Shown: positions 2 through 29,489 of the stretch, in pieces
How positions within the stretch are numbered: the first letter of the stretch is position 1
How the letters are laid out: every line of letters begins with the position of its first letter
Position numbers and translations under genes: made by a program
Notes under the pieces: generated by a model
The model's input: only the letters and a program-made list of their open reading frames with translations
Told to the model about the DNA's origin: nothing
The model's database searches: none
DNA from: a virus
DNA: 29,514 bases
Strand: one strand, 5' to 3'
Virus record (IMG/VR): IMGVR_UViG_3300017818_000073
Location: 1-29,514 of that record

Positions 2-1921
2 GATGATGACACTCAATCGGATTCAGGTGCTGTTTATATATACACAAAATCTGGTGGTACTTGGTCACAGCAAGCTAAAATTAAAGCTGATACACCAGTT
101 AATAGTCAACGAATGTCACAAGATGCTATAGATCTCTCTGATGATGGAAATACATTAATAGCTGGTGCTTACCGCGATAGCACCAATCTCGGAAAAACAT
201 ATATATTTACAAGATCTGGATCCACATGGTCAGAACAAGCTGCATTAACATCTAGTGATGCAACTGCTAGTCAAAGATTTGGTCATTCAGTTGGTATATC
301 TGGTGATGGTAATACTGCAGCAATAGGTGCTTTTTTTGATACTAGTGAAAAAGGGGCTTTCTATATATTCACGAGATCGGGTTCTACGTGGACACAACAA
401 GTTAAAATAGCTGGACCTAATACAGTAGCTGGAGTAAGTGGTCAATCGGTTAATGAGAAATTTGGCACTGGAGTTCGTATGTCTGGAGATGGAGGCACTG
501 TTATAGTTTCAGCACCTGAGGCTGATAAAGTAAATGTCCAGATAGGTGCTTTATATGTTTATACTGGATCTGGATCATCTTGGACTCAAGCTATAAAATT
601 ATTTAGATCTACACATGAGGCTACTGCTAATAGTTATGCTGCTTATAATACAGATATATCTCATGACGGTAATATAATTTTACTTGGAGCCAATGGTGAA
701 GATGATGGTGGAAATTCAAATACTGGTGCAGCTTATGCGTTTGCAGCACCTGTAGCGTCAACTCCAGATTGGACAGCTGCAGCTCAAGAAGCTCAGCTAT
801 CACCATCATATACGCTGGCTAACTATCAAAATTTTGGATATAGTGTTGATATCAAAGGCGATAGGGCTTTAGTTGGAGCACAAGGTGTTGATAGTAATGC
901 AGGTAAAGTGCTTTATTTTACAAGAGCTTACGAAGGATCAGCATGGACTTTACAACAAACATTTACAGGAAGTAATACTGAGGGTGGTGATTTTTTTGGT
1001 ACTGATGTAGCAATGGATGAAAATGGAACTACGTGCGTTGTTGGTGCACCAGCAGAAGACACTGGCGCAACTCAAGCTGGCATGATTTATGTTTTTACTC
1101 TAAGTGGAAATACATGGACTCAAACAGCACAACTACAAACAAGCGACACTAGAGCTAACTATGATAGCTTTGGCCAATCAGTTTCTATATACAATGGTAC
1201 GATTGCTGCTAGTGCTCCTCAAAAAGACGGCCAAGGTGCTTGTTATGTTTTCACTGGTTCAGGCTCTAGTTGGACGCAACAAGCAAAAGTAGTATCATCA
1301 GATATAGCATCTAGTGATCAATTTGGAAGAGCCATATCTTTATGGGATGACAGTTTATTAGTCGGTGCTTATTACGAAGATCCTGGTAATGTTAATCTTG
1401 CAGGATCTGCATACGTGTTTACAAGATCTGGCTCATCGTGGTCACAACAAGCCAAATTAACAGCTTCTGACGCTGCAGCTAGTGATGTCTTTGGATCAGA
1501 AGTGTGTTTAGTGGGAGACACTGCTATAGTAGGTGCTTATAATAATGACGATGATGGAACAAATTCAGGATCAGCTTATGTTTATGCAAGATCTGGCTCA
1601 TCGTGGTCACAACAACAAAAGTTGACAGCTTCTGACGCAGCGGCCGGTGATCAATTTGGCGTTGCAGTTGCAATTAATAAAACAGACGAAGATGTTGTAG
1701 TAGTAGGAGCTCAAAGTAATGATGGTGGTAAAGCATACACATTTACAAGATCTGGATCAACATGGACTCAACAGCAAGTATTTACAAGATCAGATGTTGC
1801 ATCAACAGATGGATTTGGAAATGCAATTGTAGTAGATAATTCTTCAATTATTATAGGTGATTATCAAGGTGACGAGGGTAGTTATACTAGCTCTGGAGCA
1901 GCGTTTGTATTTAAAGCATAA
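2..1921 (+). CDS. FG-GAP-repeat tail fibre/adhesin-like protein, 5' truncated
   Basis: The reading frame is open from base 2, so the window cuts into this gene and its N-terminus is missing; the ATG at 113 is internal. The visible part is about 640 residues of tandem 50-60 residue blades, each of the form: D.FG, then S.DG.T..VGA, then G..YVFTRSGSTWTQQ. I count about eleven copies of the aromatic TRSGSTW-type strand. This is the pattern of FG-GAP (integrin-alpha-type) beta-propellers, which bind proteins or glycans on cell surfaces. It lies just upstream of a second such gene and the neck genes, where T4-like phages keep fibre and baseplate genes, so a host-recognition role is inferred. No catalytic motif or membrane segment is visible. 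Blades differ most near residues 200-260 of the visible part. Identity as a repeat protein is clear; the exact virion location is not. Confidence 0.75.
   Translation, partial: DDDTQSDSGAVYIYTKSGGTWSQQAKIKADTPVNSQRMSQDAIDLSDDGNTLIAGAYRDSTNLGKTYIFTRSGSTWSEQAALTSSDATASQRFGHSVGISGDGNTAAIGAFFDTSEKGAFYIFTRSGSTWTQQVKIAGPNTVAGVSGQSVNEKFGTGVRMSGDGGTVIVSAPEADKVNVQIGALYVYTGSGSSWTQAIKLFRSTHEATANSYAAYNTDISHDGNIILLGANGEDDGGNSNTGAAYAFAAPVASTPDWTAAAQEAQLSPSYTLANYQNFGYSVDIKGDRALVGAQGVDSNAGKVLYFTRAYEGSAWTLQQTFTGSNTEGGDFFGTDVAMDENGTTCVVGAPAEDTGATQAGMIYVFTLSGNTWTQTAQLQTSDTRANYDSFGQSVSIYNGTIAASAPQKDGQGACYVFTGSGSSWTQQAKVVSSDIASSDQFGRAISLWDDSLLVGAYYEDPGNVNLAGSAYVFTRSGSSWSQQAKLTASDAAASDVFGSEVCLVGDTAIVGAYNNDDDGTNSGSAYVYARSGSSWSQQQKLTASDAAAGDQFGVAVAINKTDEDVVVVGAQSNDGGKAYTFTRSGSTWTQQQVFTRSDVASTDGFGNAIVVDNSSIIIGDYQGDEGSYTSSGAAFVFKA
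1422..1615 (+). repeat. 29-bp exact direct repeat pair inside the first fibre gene
   Basis: The same 29-base string, encoding the RSGSSWSQQ strand of two neighbouring blades, occurs at 1422-1450 and 1587-1615 (165 bases apart, one blade). Flanking codons for the following TASDAAA segment are also nearly the same. Conservation at synonymous positions points to a recent blade duplication. Confidence 0.7.
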
Positions 1922-1929
1922 TGAAATTA

Positions 1930-1937
1930 TATAAATA
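1930..1937 (+). promoter_or_regulatory. T4-type late promoter (TATAAATA) before the 1249-aa fibre gene
   Basis: An exact match to the T4 late octamer lies in the 48-base gap between the two fibre genes, 32 bases ahead of the ATG at 1970. Late transcription by gp55-RNA polymerase would start near 1943 and leave a 27-base leader. Confidence 0.75.
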
Positions 1938-1969
1938 AGAGAATAAACATAAACAATTAGAGATAGTTA

Positions 1970-4900
1970 ATGTCAACCGCAATTAAAACAAAATTTAATG
2001 TTGATAAAATAGAAACTTCAGAAAGTCTTAAGCTTGGTGGCACAACCGCAACAAGTCTTATTGATTCTAGCACCGTTACATCTATAGGTACTTCTTCTTC
2101 AGTAGCTCTCTCTATAGTTCAAAATGCTGGAAACCCATCAGCAAAGATATACGATTCTGCAGAGCTTTTGCCAGGAAGTGCTGATTCTGGTTCAATGGCA
2201 TTAGTAACAGAAACTAATAGATTATACATTTGGAATGGAACTGGTTGGTACAATATTGCTTTAGTTAATACTTCTCCAACGTTAAGTACTACTCCTGATT
2301 CTAATTATACAATGGATTCAGTTGGAGCGTCATTAACAGTTACTATGGTAGCATCAGATCCAGAAGAATTGCCAATAACGTATTCATATCTTTCAGATTC
2401 AGCATCTAACTTTGTATCAATTACTCAAGACTCAGGTGTATTTACTATTTCATCATTAACTCAAGCTCAACTCGATTCCAACGGAGTCAGTTCTGGTGGT
2501 ACATTTAGTATTACATTTAGAGCAACAGATGGCGTTAATATAGCGCCAGCGGTAAGTAGTTTCACATTAACTCTTGCTGTAACATATGATTGGTCAACAA
2601 CATCTCAAGCTAATAAGATAACTGCATCTGATGCTGCTAATAATGATTTCTTTGGTAACGTTGTTGACATAGATGGTGATTACGCTGTAGTAGGAGCTCG
2701 AGGTAATAAGGCTGTTTACATTTACAAAGCATCAGATCTTAGTTGGGCTTATGGACAACAACAAGCTAATTTTCAAGGTGCAGATGTTGGTGGTAATAGT
2801 TTTTATGGACAGGGTCTAGAAATTTCCAATGATGGAAACACTACTGCAGTCGGAGCTAGAGGTGATTATGCTATCTACGTTCATACTAGATCTGGATCAA
2901 CATGGTCTCAACAACAGAAAATTACAGTATCCGGACAATCGGGTCATATTGGTCGTGTTGTATCTCTTTCCGGCGACGGAGACACAGTTGCTTTTTCTGA
3001 CGCTATCTATAGCACCAATAATATTGGTAGAGTGTATGTTTGGACTAGATCTGGGTCAACTTGGTCATCAGAAACAATTATAGAATATGATGATGCAGAT
3101 GCTGATTTAGATTCAGGTGATAGATTTGGAAGTTCTTTAGCGTTAACGGATGATGGTAATACATTAGTAATAGGTTGTTTTAAAGAAGATCAGGATGGGA
3201 GTAACACAGGAGGTGTTTATGTTTTTACAAGATCAGGTTCAACGTGGTCTTTTCAACAAAGACTTCAATCTAATCCCGTTATAACCAATTCTGAATTTGG
3301 TAATGAAAGACACGGTGTAGGAATTTCTGGAGATGGAAATTATATAGTAGTAGGAGCAGGTGGTTCGAATAAATCACACGTATTTAATTTATCTGGAGGT
3401 ACATGGTCTCAACAAGCAATATTAACACCAAGTGGTGGTAGCCCTGGAACGAACGCCCCATCTGTTGATATATCACAAAGTGGTGATACGGTAATAGTGG
3501 GGGTGCCGCTTTCTGATGGAGAAGCTTCTAATGCTGGTGCTGCATATGTATTTACGAGATCAGGCTCAACTTGGACTCAAGAAGCAAGATTAAACCATTC
3601 AACAGCTGCGTCAAATGATTATTTTGGATGGGACGTAGGTATATCAAATGATGGAAACACTGCTATTGTTTCAGCTTATGCGGATGACATAAGTTCTAGT
3701 ACTGATGCCGGTTCAGCATTCGTTTTTACGAGATCTGGTACAACTTGGACTCAACAAAAAGAGTTAAACCAAAGTACGGTATACGCTGAAAGTTATTTTG
3801 GTTATCAATCAAGAATTTCTGGAGATGCAACAACTGCAATAGTAAGCGCAAATGGTTATGATACTTTATCTTCACCGTATGATGTTGGTATGGTGTACAT
3901 ATACGAGCAGGCACGCCAATGGACAGAACAAACAAAGATACAAGAAACAACATTCGGATCCAATTTCGGTCATTCTGTATCAATATCTGGTGACACAGTA
4001 GTAGTAGGTTCAAACAATACAGATGTTAATAGTCCAGATGGAACAAAGTCTTATGTATATACGAGAGCTAGTTACAACTTAACGAATGCATCATACGCTA
4101 GTAAAACTTATTCATTTGCTTCTGTAGATAATGGACCTACTGGATTTGCATTTAACAGTGATGGAACTAAATTATTTTTTGTTGGTTGGCAACAAACACT
4201 CATCAACAGTACTACTGGTGGTTGTTATCAGTATAGTTTATCTACAGCTTACGACGTTTCGACTGCAACTTACGATAACGTTTCTTTAGATTTAAGTAGC
4301 CAAATGACACAACCTATGGGAATGAATTTTAGTTCAGATGGAACTAAATTGTTTGTTCTCGATAATCAAGCAAGTGTTAATGGAGATGTTGTATTTCAAT
4401 ATAATTTGTCGACAGCATTTGATTTAAGCACAGCATCGTATAGTAATAATAGTTTAGATGTTAGTTCGTACGAGACAATAGCATCCGGAATAGATTTTAA
4501 ACCCGATGGAACAAAAATGTTTGTAGTGGGAGAGCAAACAGATACTATCCGCGCTTGGAATCTTTCAAGTGCTTGGGATCTTTCAACTGCATCGTATGCT
4601 AGTGAAACTTATAGTGTTTCATCACAAGATGGTCTTCCAACTGGATTCACATTTAACAGTACTGGAACTAAGATGTACTTCGTTGGTCGTACAAATCATG
4701 ATATATATCAATATAGCTTATCTACTGCATGGGATGTTTCAACTGCATCTTATGATAGTATTAGTTTAGATGTTAGTAGTCAAGAAGGAGATCAACCGCG
4801 TCAGATTAGATTTAATTCAGATGGAAGTAAATTGTGGATGATAGGCTCTGTTAGTGATTCAATTTTTGAATATAGTGTACCTGAAACGTGGTCTTTACAA

Positions 4901-5719
4901 CAAAAAGTTGATCCGTCTCAAGCTCATCAGGATGATCAGTTTGGAAAACAAAGAACGATGAAATTAGATAAGTCTAATAACAATCAATTCATTGCAGGTG
5001 CATACAGCGAAGATGAAAGTTATTCTGCAGAAGGTGCTGTTTATATATTCACAAGATCAGGTTCAACGTGGTCAGAACAGCAAAGAATAGTACCTTCAGA
5101 CGGAGCAATAAACTCTAACTATGGTATAACTGCAGACATTTCTGGTGATTACGCAGTGTTTGGCGGTCGACCTGGTAACAATTTTGCAGTCTATGTTTGG
5201 ACTAGGTCTGGGTCTACATGGAGCCAACAAACAAAGCTCACACAACCATCTGGCCACACAAACTCTCAATATGCTTATGATAGTGGTTTATCAATAAATC
5301 AAGCTGGAGATACAATAGCAGTTGGTGCATATGGAAACAGTTCCACTCAAGCAGGAAAGGTGTTTATTTTTACAAGATCAGGTTCGACTTGGACAAATCA
5401 AGCTGTAATTCAACCTTCTGATACTGCTAATGGTGACTTTTTTGGATGGGAGTGTAGGCTAGACAGCACTGGTGATATTTTAGTAGTAGGTGCAAAAACA
5501 GCAGGCACTGGCGGAAAGGCATATGTATTCACAAGAGATGGTGCAACTTGGACTCAACAAGCAAATATTACAGCTTCAGATGTCGCTAGTAATTGGGAAT
5601 TTGGTGAAGATGTGGGTATTAGTGGTGGAGACGGTAGATTAATAGTTGGAGCTAGACAATATAGCTCAAGTGCAAGTGGAAAAGGTGCAGCTTATATTTT
5701 TACAGCATCAGAATCTTAA
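1970..5719 (+). CDS. mosaic tail fibre/adhesin: Ig-like domain plus two kinds of beta-propeller repeat
   Basis: A 1249-residue protein with four visible parts. Residues 1-100 form a fibre-type N-terminus with the motif LYIWNGTGW (85-93). Residues about 101-205 look like a cadherin/Ig-like beta-sandwich ending in TLAVTYDW. Residues about 206-700 are FG-GAP blades like those of the preceding gene (FTRSGSTW strands). Residues about 700-975 are a different repeat, roughly five blades with GF.FNSDGTK.F.VG followed by YSLSTA.DVSTASY, resembling WD/YVTN-type propellers. FG-GAP blades resume from about 975 to the C-terminus. No signal peptide, membrane segment or catalytic motif is seen. It has its own late promoter and is followed 32 bases later by gene 13. 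A host-attachment role is inferred from architecture and position; the family is marine-phage-like, but no exact homologue is named. Confidence 0.75.
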   Translation: MSTAIKTKFNVDKIETSESLKLGGTTATSLIDSSTVTSIGTSSSVALSIVQNAGNPSAKIYDSAELLPGSADSGSMALVTETNRLYIWNGTGWYNIALVNTSPTLSTTPDSNYTMDSVGASLTVTMVASDPEELPITYSYLSDSASNFVSITQDSGVFTISSLTQAQLDSNGVSSGGTFSITFRATDGVNIAPAVSSFTLTLAVTYDWSTTSQANKITASDAANNDFFGNVVDIDGDYAVVGARGNKAVYIYKASDLSWAYGQQQANFQGADVGGNSFYGQGLEISNDGNTTAVGARGDYAIYVHTRSGSTWSQQQKITVSGQSGHIGRVVSLSGDGDTVAFSDAIYSTNNIGRVYVWTRSGSTWSSETIIEYDDADADLDSGDRFGSSLALTDDGNTLVIGCFKEDQDGSNTGGVYVFTRSGSTWSFQQRLQSNPVITNSEFGNERHGVGISGDGNYIVVGAGGSNKSHVFNLSGGTWSQQAILTPSGGSPGTNAPSVDISQSGDTVIVGVPLSDGEASNAGAAYVFTRSGSTWTQEARLNHSTAASNDYFGWDVGISNDGNTAIVSAYADDISSSTDAGSAFVFTRSGTTWTQQKELNQSTVYAESYFGYQSRISGDATTAIVSANGYDTLSSPYDVGMVYIYEQARQWTEQTKIQETTFGSNFGHSVSISGDTVVVGSNNTDVNSPDGTKSYVYTRASYNLTNASYASKTYSFASVDNGPTGFAFNSDGTKLFFVGWQQTLINSTTGGCYQYSLSTAYDVSTATYDNVSLDLSSQMTQPMGMNFSSDGTKLFVLDNQASVNGDVVFQYNLSTAFDLSTASYSNNSLDVSSYETIASGIDFKPDGTKMFVVGEQTDTIRAWNLSSAWDLSTASYASETYSVSSQDGLPTGFTFNSTGTKMYFVGRTNHDIYQYSLSTAWDVSTASYDSISLDVSSQEGDQPRQIRFNSDGSKLWMIGSVSDSIFEYSVPETWSLQQKVDPSQAHQDDQFGKQRTMKLDKSNNNQFIAGAYSEDESYSAEGAVYIFTRSGSTWSEQQRIVPSDGAINSNYGITADISGDYAVFGGRPGNNFAVYVWTRSGSTWSQQTKLTQPSGHTNSQYAYDSGLSINQAGDTIAVGAYGNSSTQAGKVFIFTRSGSTWTNQAVIQPSDTANGDFFGWECRLDSTGDILVVGAKTAGTGGKAYVFTRDGATWTQQANITASDVASNWEFGEDVGISGGDGRLIVGARQYSSSASGKGAAYIFTASES
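4070..4893 (+). repeat. five-blade WD/YVTN-like repeat block inserted between FG-GAP blades
   Basis: Within the 1249-residue protein this block repeats a unit of about 55 residues: P.GF.F.SDGTK.F.VG, then QYSLSTA(F/Y/W)D(V/L)STA(S/T)Y, then SLDVSSQ. Four STASY-type copies sit near 4255, 4420, 4580 and 4735. It shares no motif with the RSGSTW blades on either side. Confidence 0.7.
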
Positions 5720-8183: not shown

Positions 8184-8600
8184 ATGTATGAATATAGAGT
8201 AAAGATCGTTAAGATAGTCGATGGTGATACCGTTGATGTTGATATTGATTTAGGTTTTGGTGTATGGATGCACAAAGAACGCATAAGATTATTTGGTATA
8301 GACACGCCCGAATCAAGAACTCGAGATTTAGAAGAAAAGAAATATGGATTAGCTGCTAAAAAATTTCTGACAGGCATGTTAGATGATGAAGGTGGTATTA
8401 TACTTAAGACACATAAAGATAAAACTGGTAAGTTTGGAAGAATACTAGGTGAATTGTGGAGAACAACGAACTATGCTGATCAGTCTATAAATAATTATAT
8501 GATTGACAAACACCATGCAGTAATGTACCTAGGACAATCTAAAGATGATATTCAAGAACAGCATATTAAAAATCGTGAGTTTGTGAACTTAGATGAGTGA
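8184..8600 (+). CDS. staphylococcal-nuclease-like (thermonuclease) protein
   Basis: A 138-residue SNase-fold protein. The motif VDGDT (residues 12-16) gives the metal-binding aspartates. RIRLFGIDTPE follows, with Arg35, Asp40, Thr41 and Glu43 matching the classic SNase catalytic set, and FGR (Arg86) matches the second catalytic arginine. The enzyme is therefore predicted to be an active Ca2+-dependent nuclease cutting DNA or RNA. No signal peptide is seen, so it should act in the infected cell. It sits between tail gene 15 and terminase gene 16 and overlaps the latter by 8 bases, so it is made with the packaging genes. Roles in host DNA breakdown or in trimming packaging or recombination intermediates are possible and not distinguishable here. 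No clear Shine-Dalgarno is seen, which suggests coupling to gene 15. Confidence 0.85.
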   Translation: MYEYRVKIVKIVDGDTVDVDIDLGFGVWMHKERIRLFGIDTPESRTRDLEEKKYGLAAKKFLTGMLDDEGGIILKTHKDKTGKFGRILGELWRTTNYADQSINNYMIDKHHAVMYLGQSKDDIQEQHIKNREFVNLDE

Positions 8601-22175: not shown

Positions 22176-22757
22176 ATGGCACGTAAAAAAAGCATACATT
22201 ATGTCAACAATTCTGATTTTTCTACCGCAGTGGTTGAATATGTTGAAAGAGTAGAAAAAGCTAGAAAAGAAGAGACAAAGATTCCTACAGTACCAGACTA
22301 TATAGCTCAATGCTTTCTCAGAATCGCAGAAGGTTTATCACACAAAGCTAACTTCATAAGATATACTTATAGAGAAGAAATGGTAATGGACGCAGTTGAA
22401 AATTGTTTAAAAGCAATAGGGAACTATAACTTAGAAGCAGCAACAAGAACTGGTAAACCAAATGCATTTGCATATTTTACTCAGATAACGTGGTATGCTT
22501 TTTTAAGAAGAATAACAAAAGAAAAGAAACAACAAGAAATAAAAATAAAGTATTTAACTAAATCGGGTATTGATAGTTTTGTTGATGTTGGTACTGAAGC
22601 AACCGCTGCAGATACAGCAGCACACTTTGTAGATACTCTTAAAGATAGAATAGCTAGAGTACGAAGTGCTGATAATGAGATAAAAGAAATAGTTAAAAAG
22701 GAAAGAAAGAAGCGTAAAGTTAAAATAGCAGATTCAGATTTAAGTGAGTTTATGTAA
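22176..22757 (+). CDS. 55: late-transcription sigma factor gp55
   Basis: A 193-residue protein (T4 gp55 is 185). gp55 is a minimal sigma factor that binds host RNA polymerase and recognises TATAAATA; in T4 it works with gp33 and the gp45 clamp. The helical region with IAEGLSHKANFIRYTYREEMVMDAVENCLKAIGNYN (near 50-85) followed by PNAFAYFTQITWYAFLRRITKEKKQQ (about 95-120) corresponds to sigma region 2, which contacts the polymerase clamp and the -10. There is no full region 4. AAAGGA precedes the ATG. The exact late octamers upstream in this window are its expected targets. The stop overlaps gene 47 (TAATG). Confidence 0.93.
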   Translation: MARKKSIHYVNNSDFSTAVVEYVERVEKARKEETKIPTVPDYIAQCFLRIAEGLSHKANFIRYTYREEMVMDAVENCLKAIGNYNLEAATRTGKPNAFAYFTQITWYAFLRRITKEKKQQEIKIKYLTKSGIDSFVDVGTEATAADTAAHFVDTLKDRIARVRSADNEIKEIVKKERKKRKVKIADSDLSEFM

Positions 22758-28039: not shown

Positions 28040-28413
28040 ATCCTTTTGAATATTGTAATGCAATAAATTACACTAAGAAAAATATTATGATAGATGATAT
28101 CACAGAAAAAGCATATTCATCTTACATGGTAAACCGTCAGTTATCATACTTCCCAGATACCGTTTTAGCTGCAAATGAAATGAATCGCAATCACCACCTC
28201 GAAAATCGTTTACAATTCGATTTTTTTATAAATATAATTAGAAAACGTAAAAGGTTTTCTAAATGGTTCAAACCTGAACAAATTAGTGATTTGGATGTAG
28301 TTAAACAGTATTATGGCTATAGTAATGAAAAAGCCCGCCAAGTTTTAACACTCCTATCCACTGATAATATAAAAGAATTGAAAAATAAGGTGGCTAAAGG
28401 TGGAAGAAAATAA
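28036..28413 (+). CDS. 62: clamp loader small subunit gp62
   Basis: About 125 residues from the ATG at 28036, which lies in an ATGA overlap. The frame is open further back to 28000, but that part overlaps the membrane peptide. The block YSSYMVNRQLSYFPDTVLAANEMN aligns with the T4 gp62 segment [24 protein letters not shown], and RKRKRFSKWFK aligns with the following KRYGKW. T4 gp62 is 187 residues, so this one is a compact version, as seen in other marine T4-like phages. It acts with gp44 as the fifth, non-catalytic clamp-loader subunit. Three genes separate it from gene 44, unlike T4, where 44 and 62 are adjacent. Confidence 0.85.
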   Translation: MNPFEYCNAINYTKKNIMIDDITEKAYSSYMVNRQLSYFPDTVLAANEMNRNHHLENRLQFDFFINIIRKRKRFSKWFKPEQISDLDVVKQYYGYSNEKARQVLTLLSTDNIKELKNKVAKGGRK

Positions 28414-28816
28414 AATTGTAGAATGGAACCCAGCGAATATGCTTGAGGTGACATTGAATGAGCCGGACGATTTCCTTAAAATCAGAGAGACTCTTACTAG
28501 AATAGGAGTCGCATCTCGTAAAGATAATAAACTTTATCAATCTTGTCACATCTTACATAAACAGGGGCGGTACTTTATAGTACATTTTAAAGAACTCTTT
28601 TTATTAGATGGAAAGAAATCAAACTTAGAAGAAAATGATGTTGCTCGTAGAAACACTATAGCTACATTAATGAGTGATTGGGGTCTATTAACTGTAGAAA
28701 ACAAAGAACAGTTACAACCTATAGCACCATTAAGACAAATAAAGATTATTTCTTTTAAAGATAAAGATCAATGGGAATTGTGTCCGAAATATAATATTGG
28801 TAATGGAACAAAGTAA
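28400..28816 (+). CDS. regA: translational repressor RegA
   Basis: Up to 138 residues. From residue 14 (MLEVTLNEPDDF) it aligns along its length with T4 RegA (122 residues), including KIRETLTRIGVASRKDNKLYQSCHILHKQG, YFIVHFKELFLLDGK and the end CPKYNIGNG. RegA binds AU-rich start regions of early mRNAs, such as those of genes 44 and 45 and its own, and blocks their translation. The start is uncertain: the GTG at 28400 overlaps gene 62, while the ATG at 28439 matches the T4 N-terminus exactly; neither has a strong ribosome-binding site, which fits a self-repressed gene. Gene order 45-44-62-regA is as in T4. Confidence 0.93.
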   Translation: MEENKIVEWNPANMLEVTLNEPDDFLKIRETLTRIGVASRKDNKLYQSCHILHKQGRYFIVHFKELFLLDGKKSNLEENDVARRNTIATLMSDWGLLTVENKEQLQPIAPLRQIKIISFKDKDQWELCPKYNIGNGTK

Positions 28817-28989: not shown

Positions 28990-29022
28990 ATGTACTTTTG
29001 AAAAAAAAGTATTATATATATT
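28990..29022 (+). promoter_or_regulatory. promoter before hsp20 with TACTTTT box
   Basis: ATGTAC (28990-28995) and TATATA (29013-29018) have 17-base spacing; the -10 lies in an alternating AT tract, so its exact place is uncertain. TACTTTT (28993-28999) is shared with the gene 55 and 45 promoters and here forms an inverted repeat with AAAAGTA (29005-29011). The expected start is near 29025, just before the leader hairpin. Confidence 0.6.
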
Positions 29023-29025
29023 ATA

Positions 29026-29078
29026 GGATGCCGAATGGTTCGGGTCCGCACAACAACCTTGCTTAATAGGAGGATACT
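29026..29078 (+). promoter_or_regulatory. candidate ROSE-like RNA thermometer in the hsp20 leader
   Basis: Two stems are visible. Hairpin I spans 29026-29047: GGAT pairs with GTCC, G29030 is bulged, and CCGAA pairs with TTCGG around TGG. Hairpin II pairs CTTGCT (29058-29063) with the Shine-Dalgarno AGGAGG (29068-29073) around a 4-base loop. Its pairs are U-A, C-G, a central G opposite G, U-A, U-G and C-G. A UYGCU segment closing on the SD with a G opposite G is the hallmark of ROSE thermometers of proteobacterial small heat-shock genes. Not tested by folding software. Confidence 0.6.
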
Positions 29079-29489
29079 ATGAACGGAAACTTTGTTTTCC
29101 CAAGAAACGCTTTTTTAGGTTTTGATCACATTTTCGATGCACTGCAAGATATACATACGCATGCAAACGATGGATACCCACCACATAATGTTGTTCGAGA
29201 AGAAGATAACAAATATGTTATTGAAATGGCTGTAGCCGGCTTCAAGAAAAAAGACATTGAAATTAAGGTGAAGGAACATATCCTTACCATCGAAGGAAAT
29301 AGAGATAAACGTAGAGAAGCGGATGCTTATGTACACAAAGGAATTAGTGCACGTAAGTTTAACAAATCGTTCAGACTGTCGGAATATACCGAAGTGACTG
29401 GTGCCGATCTTACGGATGGAATACTAACTGTCAATCTTGAAGTTGTTCTACCAAAAGAAAAGCAGCCTCGTACAATTAACATAACGTAA
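29079..29489 (+). CDS. small heat-shock protein Hsp20
   Basis: A 136-residue small heat-shock protein with an alpha-crystallin domain (about residues 35-125). Typical segments are YVIEMAVAGFKKKDIEIKVKEHILTIEG, SARKFNKSFRLSEY and GADLTDGILTVNLEV. The C-terminus ends in the I-x-I motif (INI, 133-135) that docks between dimers in the oligomer. The N-terminus FVFPRNAFLGFDHIFDAL resembles bacterial IbpA-type proteins. It should act as an ATP-independent holdase in the host cytoplasm. AGGAGG 5 bases before the ATG is a perfect ribosome-binding site, but it is predicted to be masked by the leader structure. hsp20 genes are common in marine T4-like phages. Confidence 0.93.
   Translation: MNGNFVFPRNAFLGFDHIFDALQDIHTHANDGYPPHNVVREEDNKYVIEMAVAGFKKKDIEIKVKEHILTIEGNRDKRREADAYVHKGISARKFNKSFRLSEYTEVTGADLTDGILTVNLEVVLPKEKQPRTINIT

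Follow-up and report, generated by a model that had tools for sequence, protein, structure and literature searches.

The closest described counterparts of the leader reported here are ROSE elements, which are defined by a 3' hairpin where the sequence UYGCU masks the Shine-Dalgarno (SD) sequence and by a stable hairpin upstream (PMC3669281, PMC11342760). The two-hairpin elements of Pseudomonas ibpA repress at 25 C, whereas at 42 C hairpin II is open and hairpin I remains closed; removal of the bulge abolishes induction (PMC3669281). In bacteria, IbpA also acts through this leader to repress its own mRNA, and aggregates titrate the protein (PMC10474464). One small heat-shock protein leader of a cyanobacterium, Anabaena, is reported to contain ROSE-like sequence, and phage lambda cIII is a known phage RNA thermometer (both cited in PMC4166951). 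The hsp20 gene is a core gene of marine T4-like cyanophages, for which a role in capsid maturation has been suggested (PMC3037559). Within the literature that we searched, no account of phage hsp20 control and no description of a phage ROSE element were found; most subscription papers lay outside that search, and priority cannot be certified. Within the same limits, a ROSE-class element in viruses is new, with its temperature response inferred from the class.

The DNA analysed here (the window) is a 29.5-kb virus record of 29,514 nucleotides from a marine T4-like phage, whose terminase is nearest to that of phage C48C1 (67.7%, Kyanoviridae), with cyanophages next. The hsp20 gene lies at the right end of the window, after the genes for gp44-like and gp62-like clamp loader subunits and the RegA gene; in cyanophages, hsp20 is frequently found between regA and gp43. 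Upstream of the leader is a probable T4-type late promoter box (consensus TATAAATA). The YGC motif is preceded by the sequence TATAWATA in 76 of 77 leaders from the window's clade (at a distance of 42-49 nt), 79 of 79 C48C1-like leaders and 60 of 79 Melnitz-like leaders, the distance over the three groups being mostly 43-49 nt. Since the late promoter box is accompanied by a gp55-like sigma factor encoded in the window, transcription probably starts at hairpin I, with the predicted 5' end of the mRNA near its first base, about 29026; this is an inference, as the start site has not been mapped. Elsewhere in the window, two large adjoining ORFs (2-5719) of DxxxDGNTxxxGAxxDxxxxGxxYxFTRSGSTWxQQ-type repeats are probably virion surface or fibre proteins, and an ORF among the virion genes (8184-8600) has a staphylococcal-nuclease-like start (VKIVDGDTVDVDIDLGFG...RLFGIDTPE), a judgement made by eye only.

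Table 1. Coordinates of the hsp20 leader and associated features within the window.
Feature	Position	Strand	Description and basis
gp55-like late sigma factor gene	22176-22757		encoded in the window
RegA gene	28400-28816		one gene upstream of hsp20; PF01818, E 1.5e-44
T4-type late promoter box (probable)	29013..29020	+	TATATATA; sequence likeness
Rfam RF02523 (ROSE_3) match	29022..29084	+	covers both hairpins and the start codon
Hairpin I	29026..29047	+	GGAU-(bulged G29030)-CCGAA-UGG-UUCGG-GUCC; folding; at or adjoining the predicted 5' end
Single-stranded spacer	29048..29056	+	folding; length and sequence differ among relatives
Hairpin II, ROSE-type thermosensing hairpin (label based on class)	29057..29073	+	CCUU-(bulged G29061)-CU / UAAU loop / AGGAGG; folding at 25-30 C; covariation; ROSE_3 and R1 matches
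ROSE U(U/C)GCU anti-SD motif	29059..29063	+	UUGCU; sequence
Shine-Dalgarno sequence of hsp20	29068..29073	+	AGGAGG; 5 nt upstream of the start codon
hsp20	29079..29489	+	136 aa alpha-crystallin-type small heat-shock protein; PF00011, E 1.1e-21; phrog_432, E 1.1e-37

The hsp20 leader is 53 nt long and consists of hairpin I, a spacer and hairpin II (Table 1). A sequence-only reading had placed the SD, the CUUGCU facing it (29058-29063), the UAAU loop between them (29064-29067) and the upstream hairpin; all of these positions were correct and folding predicts both hairpins, with the single correction that the stem of hairpin II also includes C29057. Hairpin I has a predicted stability of about -12 kcal/mol at 25 C, with mean z scores of -1.8 to -3.2 across clades; its 5'-side bulged G is present in 43 of 46 leaders of the window's clade, and its outer positions take 4-6 pair types. 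The leader has the sequence and structure features by which the literature recognises the ROSE class: it is a 5' UTR immediately followed by a small heat-shock protein gene; U(U/C)GCU pairs with the SD in the 3'-proximal hairpin and is kept with compensation in relatives; the pairing is imperfect, with a bulged G indicated by both covariation and folding; and, where the class has two to four hairpins including a stable upstream one, this leader has the covarying hairpin I. The Rfam model ROSE_3 (RF02523) aligned with the leader from end to end (model positions 1-69; 23.6 bits, E 0.0038 in 171 nt), and the leader was its only match when the whole record was searched (E 1.6e-4). Because this score misses the gathering score of 43, the leader is left out of the curated ROSE_3 family. 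At the gathering threshold Rfam gave no match anywhere in the window, and in a scan of 15 phage loci even the best, Melnitz (34.1), fell short of the ROSE_3 cut-off. The ROSE design proposed in the sequence-only reading agrees with the literature definition and, below threshold, with the entire ROSE_3 model. The two hairpins and the masked SD are established by comparison of sequences. We judge it likely that the leader acts as a cis-regulatory RNA of the ROSE class, with two hairpins, and restrains translation; its temperature response is inferred from the class.

Many pyrimidine stretches can pair with an SD, and the resemblance could in principle have arisen by chance, a reading with which it agrees that the leader, folded as a single sequence, has an energy no better than its shuffles (z -0.1 to -0.5). 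Model searches (see below) and comparison of relatives leave this reading with practically no credibility. The leaders compared came from named isolates and from hsp20 loci that are related either to the window or to one of four other phage Hsp20s. Since MAFFT mis-registers hairpin I, an RNAalifold consensus on MAFFT alignments understates that hairpin, and such consensuses were replaced by anchored counts and a model-based alignment. Anchored counting used YGC and GGAG, picked by sequence only, in 197 distinct phage leaders. The second loop-side SD pair was U-A in 122 leaders and A-U in 45, and was paired in 99% as against 60% with shuffled partners; the third outer pair was C-G in 60, A-U in 44 and U-A in 43 (75% for these three types) and was paired in 77%, compared with 37% (maximum 45%) after shuffling. 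The model-based alignment of 85 leaders, which unlike the anchored count was fitted to the structure, had 93.2% of cells paired versus 74.3% when shuffled and 47-65% when slid; it contained 213 double-change cells versus 68 in shuffles, with compensatory change at 11 of 14 pairs, and none of 500 shuffles matched any observed pairing or double-change value. The helix representing hairpin I (helix 2) showed double changes in all five of its pairs, with 96.9% of cells paired. Stems of at least 6 pairs in the ROSE register were found in 196 of 207 phage hsp20 leaders versus 9 of 454 other SD leaders, four of these nine being hsp20 leaders with a mis-set start and two belonging to the gene that lies just upstream of hsp20; a comparable stem occurs in about 1% of control leaders from the same records. 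Chance resemblance is refuted by the compensatory changes. Loss of the pairing without compensation in related phages, which would have counted against the original proposal, was looked for and not found: the CUUGCU/SD pairing is kept by compensatory change and is maintained down to 67% protein identity and in far more distant phages.

The register of hairpin II was also judged by covariation. The supported pairs, numbered by the last two digits of their positions, are C57-G73, C58-G72, U59-A71, U60.G70, C62-G69 and U63-A68, with G61 bulged. An arrangement with G61 opposite G70, as first suggested, was dropped, since covariation of the most variable outer pair favours a single bulged G61: that pair fits 30% of leaders in the G-opposite-G register versus 77% in the bulged-G register. 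Deletion of G61 would yield a perfect anti-SD helix, yet 345 of 356 phage hsp20 leaders keep the YGC anchor facing the SD. A sub-lineage related to HTVC008M has no UYGCU, and its CU(G)UCU likewise leaves a single G bulged in the fold, shifted along by one pair. The retained and displaced bulged G is the best evidence from sequence for selection on the helix defect itself. The replacement of UYGCU by CU(G)UCU was seen in HTVC008M-related contigs L438-L445 and also in L163 and L103 (MAGs); the folds of L438 and L103 have a single bulged G at the shifted place, and the predicted fold of L163 has a larger internal loop.

Folding with ViennaRNA predicted a more occluded SD in these leaders, with a median P(unpaired) of 0.22 at 25 C, compared with 0.39 for control leaders. 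No specific opening of the SD between 25 and 45 C was predicted by this method (rise of 0.08 vs 0.07 in controls), and for the window's leader a slight closing with temperature was calculated. The E. coli ibpA control fails in the same way, giving a wrong-way trend, and because of this the temperature-series folding neither supports nor refutes thermosensing. Taken at face value, the absence of predicted temperature-specific opening would suit a temperature-insensitive hairpin that masks the SD and merely lowers or delays Hsp20 synthesis, and conserved pairing by itself demonstrates only SD masking. We nevertheless regard such a hairpin as improbable, as masking alone would not keep a single bulged G in about 97% of leaders, nor would it keep the displaced CU(G)UCU bulge or the characteristic upstream hairpin.

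The distribution of the element was examined with a covariance model, R1, built from Melnitz-like, C48C1-like and cyanophage leaders with the window's own clade left out. The only match of R1 in the window was at 29017-29081 (38 bits, E 4e-7). Of 44 other phage loci, 43 gave an R1 match at the hsp20 leader, as did 12 of 12 further isolates, and a search of 22 whole phage genomes (about 4.5 Mb), among them those of cyanophages, SAR11 and Methylophilales phages and jumbo phages, recovered this leader in 21. Matches outside hsp20 leaders in these 22 genomes were all weak, with E above 0.2. Given how weak these other matches are, the element is a feature of hsp20 rather than of phage leaders generally. 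This distribution also bears on whether the leader is a binding site for the phage translational repressor RegA, which is encoded just upstream of hsp20, or for a different trans factor. Many genes are targets of RegA, as is established for T4, whereas R1 has no other sites in the phage genomes at E below 0.2; the leader is also present where hsp20 is not beside regA (P-SSM4, S-RIM12 and the SAR11 phages HTVC115P and HTVC103P), and bacteria have the same leader. We thus give very little weight to binding of this kind, and a RegA operator was rejected because of the leader's distribution.

Several individual loci deserve comment. Vibrio phage IBT_VpB-34 (L100) has an hsp20 gene without a recognisable ROSE leader. 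At L315:747 and L324:738, a ROSE-type leader precedes a 71-79 aa phasin-like ORF just upstream of hsp20, and the element there seems to head a two-gene unit. Two annotated hsp20 starts look wrong: that of S-SRM01 (L463, position 481) is an AUG within hairpin I, and that of S-T4 (L466, position 607) is about 75 nt further downstream than the leader implies. The ibpB leader of E. coli MG1655 is weakly matched by R1 (L455:2896-2948, minus strand; 16.5 bits, E 0.06).

The same leader design was found before bacterial hsp20 genes of marine Alphaproteobacteria, SAR86, SAR324, Methylophilaceae and others, and R1 matched it in 20 of 20 bacterial loci (weakest L159, E 0.23). The phage proteins do not form one clade in the Hsp20 tree (12 label changes, at least 4 of them forced), which implies more than one transfer of the gene between phages and bacteria; the numbers of exchanges are approximate because some MAG contigs may be phage contamination. 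The sampled cyanophage proteins form one well-supported clade, from which it follows that cyanophages have long kept hsp20 and its leader. The bacterial copies and the repeated exchange support the earlier suggestion that the phage copied or kept the element.

A further explanation is that the leader is chiefly an aggregation sensor, in which Hsp20 binds its own leader and represses translation until unfolded virion or host protein titrates the chaperone late in infection, at constant temperature. Self-repression via the ibpA 5' UTR is known for IbpA of E. coli, Cedecea and Vibrio, where R93 is essential and Y34, R97 and K98 matter (PMC10474464). In phage Hsp20, position 34 is aromatic in every clade, position 97 is R or K in nearly all, and most have R at 93; a sensor of this type would also fit the late promoter box and the steady temperature of the ocean habitat. 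In the window's clade (IbpA numbering), position 34 is Y, 93 is R in 36 proteins and K in 8, and 97 is K, but 98 is S in 44 of 44 and thus not basic. Moreover, position 93 is K throughout the C48C1-like clade, and R93K is repression-defective in E. coli (PMC10474464). An aggregation sensor alone would also leave unexplained why the thermolabile bulged G is retained. With no binding data for any phage Hsp20, we consider this explanation possible though rather unlikely as the chief function of the leader; self-repression by Hsp20 remains a live rival or an addition to thermosensing.

For the ROSE-class reading that we prefer, a mechanism can be proposed by analogy with characterised ROSE elements. 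The 30S subunit would be unable to reach the SD in hairpin II at normal temperature; as the temperature rose, this hairpin, destabilised by its bulged G and its U.G pair, would open while hairpin I stayed folded, and Hsp20 would be made. Judging from the promoter box, the hsp20 message would be made late in infection, and stress would therefore adjust the translation of mRNA that is already there. Free Hsp20 may act as a second brake, released when unfolded protein occupies the chaperone, and the folding load sensed during virion assembly may be as important as heat for a virus in a steady sea. More tentatively, and with somewhat more doubt than confidence, we propose that a ROSE-type leader is near-universal and long-kept in phage hsp20 across Kyanoviridae and unrelated phages, where it would couple late chaperone synthesis to folding stress (heat, or titration of the chaperone by virion proteins) in hosts that include cyanobacteria, independently of host heat-shock regulators. 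The covarying leader extends the ROSE class to viruses and offers a concrete, testable control point for hsp20 in some of the most abundant marine phages, and it predicts that warming of the ocean, or folding stress, could influence infection output via a viral RNA. It also provides hundreds of natural variants, including the lineage with the displaced bulge, for the study of what makes a ROSE element work.

Among known systems, the lambda cIII leader is likewise a phage mRNA leader with temperature-dependent ribosome access, but it has two alternative conformations with the site more accessible at low temperature, the opposite direction, and its sequence and gene are unrelated (PMC4166951). 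The fourU criterion of four consecutive U against the SD is not met, the anti-SD strand being CCUUGCU. ROSE-G elements resemble the phage leader in having a bulged G in the anti-SD stem, which in ROSE-G confers thermosensing (PMC12857270); the ROSE-G criteria of CUGCU and a G bulge opposite another bulged G in the SD are not met by the phage leader, which has CUUGCU and, by covariation, a single bulge. The E. coli ibpA ROSE element likewise has a bulge of this kind in its GCGCC..GGGUGUUC hairpin, and its UCUCGCU pairs with AGGAG; in E. coli an additional hairpin lies between the two, and R1 missed ibpA as one unit. The short ROSE-like thermometers of Pseudomonas ibpA share with the phage leader a 5' UTR of about 60 nt with two hairpins, of which the stable hairpin I lies close to the 5' end and hairpin II hides the SD by means of U(U/C)GCU, as well as an unpaired AUG and a small heat-shock protein gene downstream (PMC3669281). 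The phage hairpin I has a conserved bulged G, for which no comparison with the Pseudomonas hairpin was made. Unlike the Pseudomonas elements, which are served by a sigma-32 promoter, the leader described here is carried by a phage behind a T4-type late promoter box, and its function in the phage is inferred.
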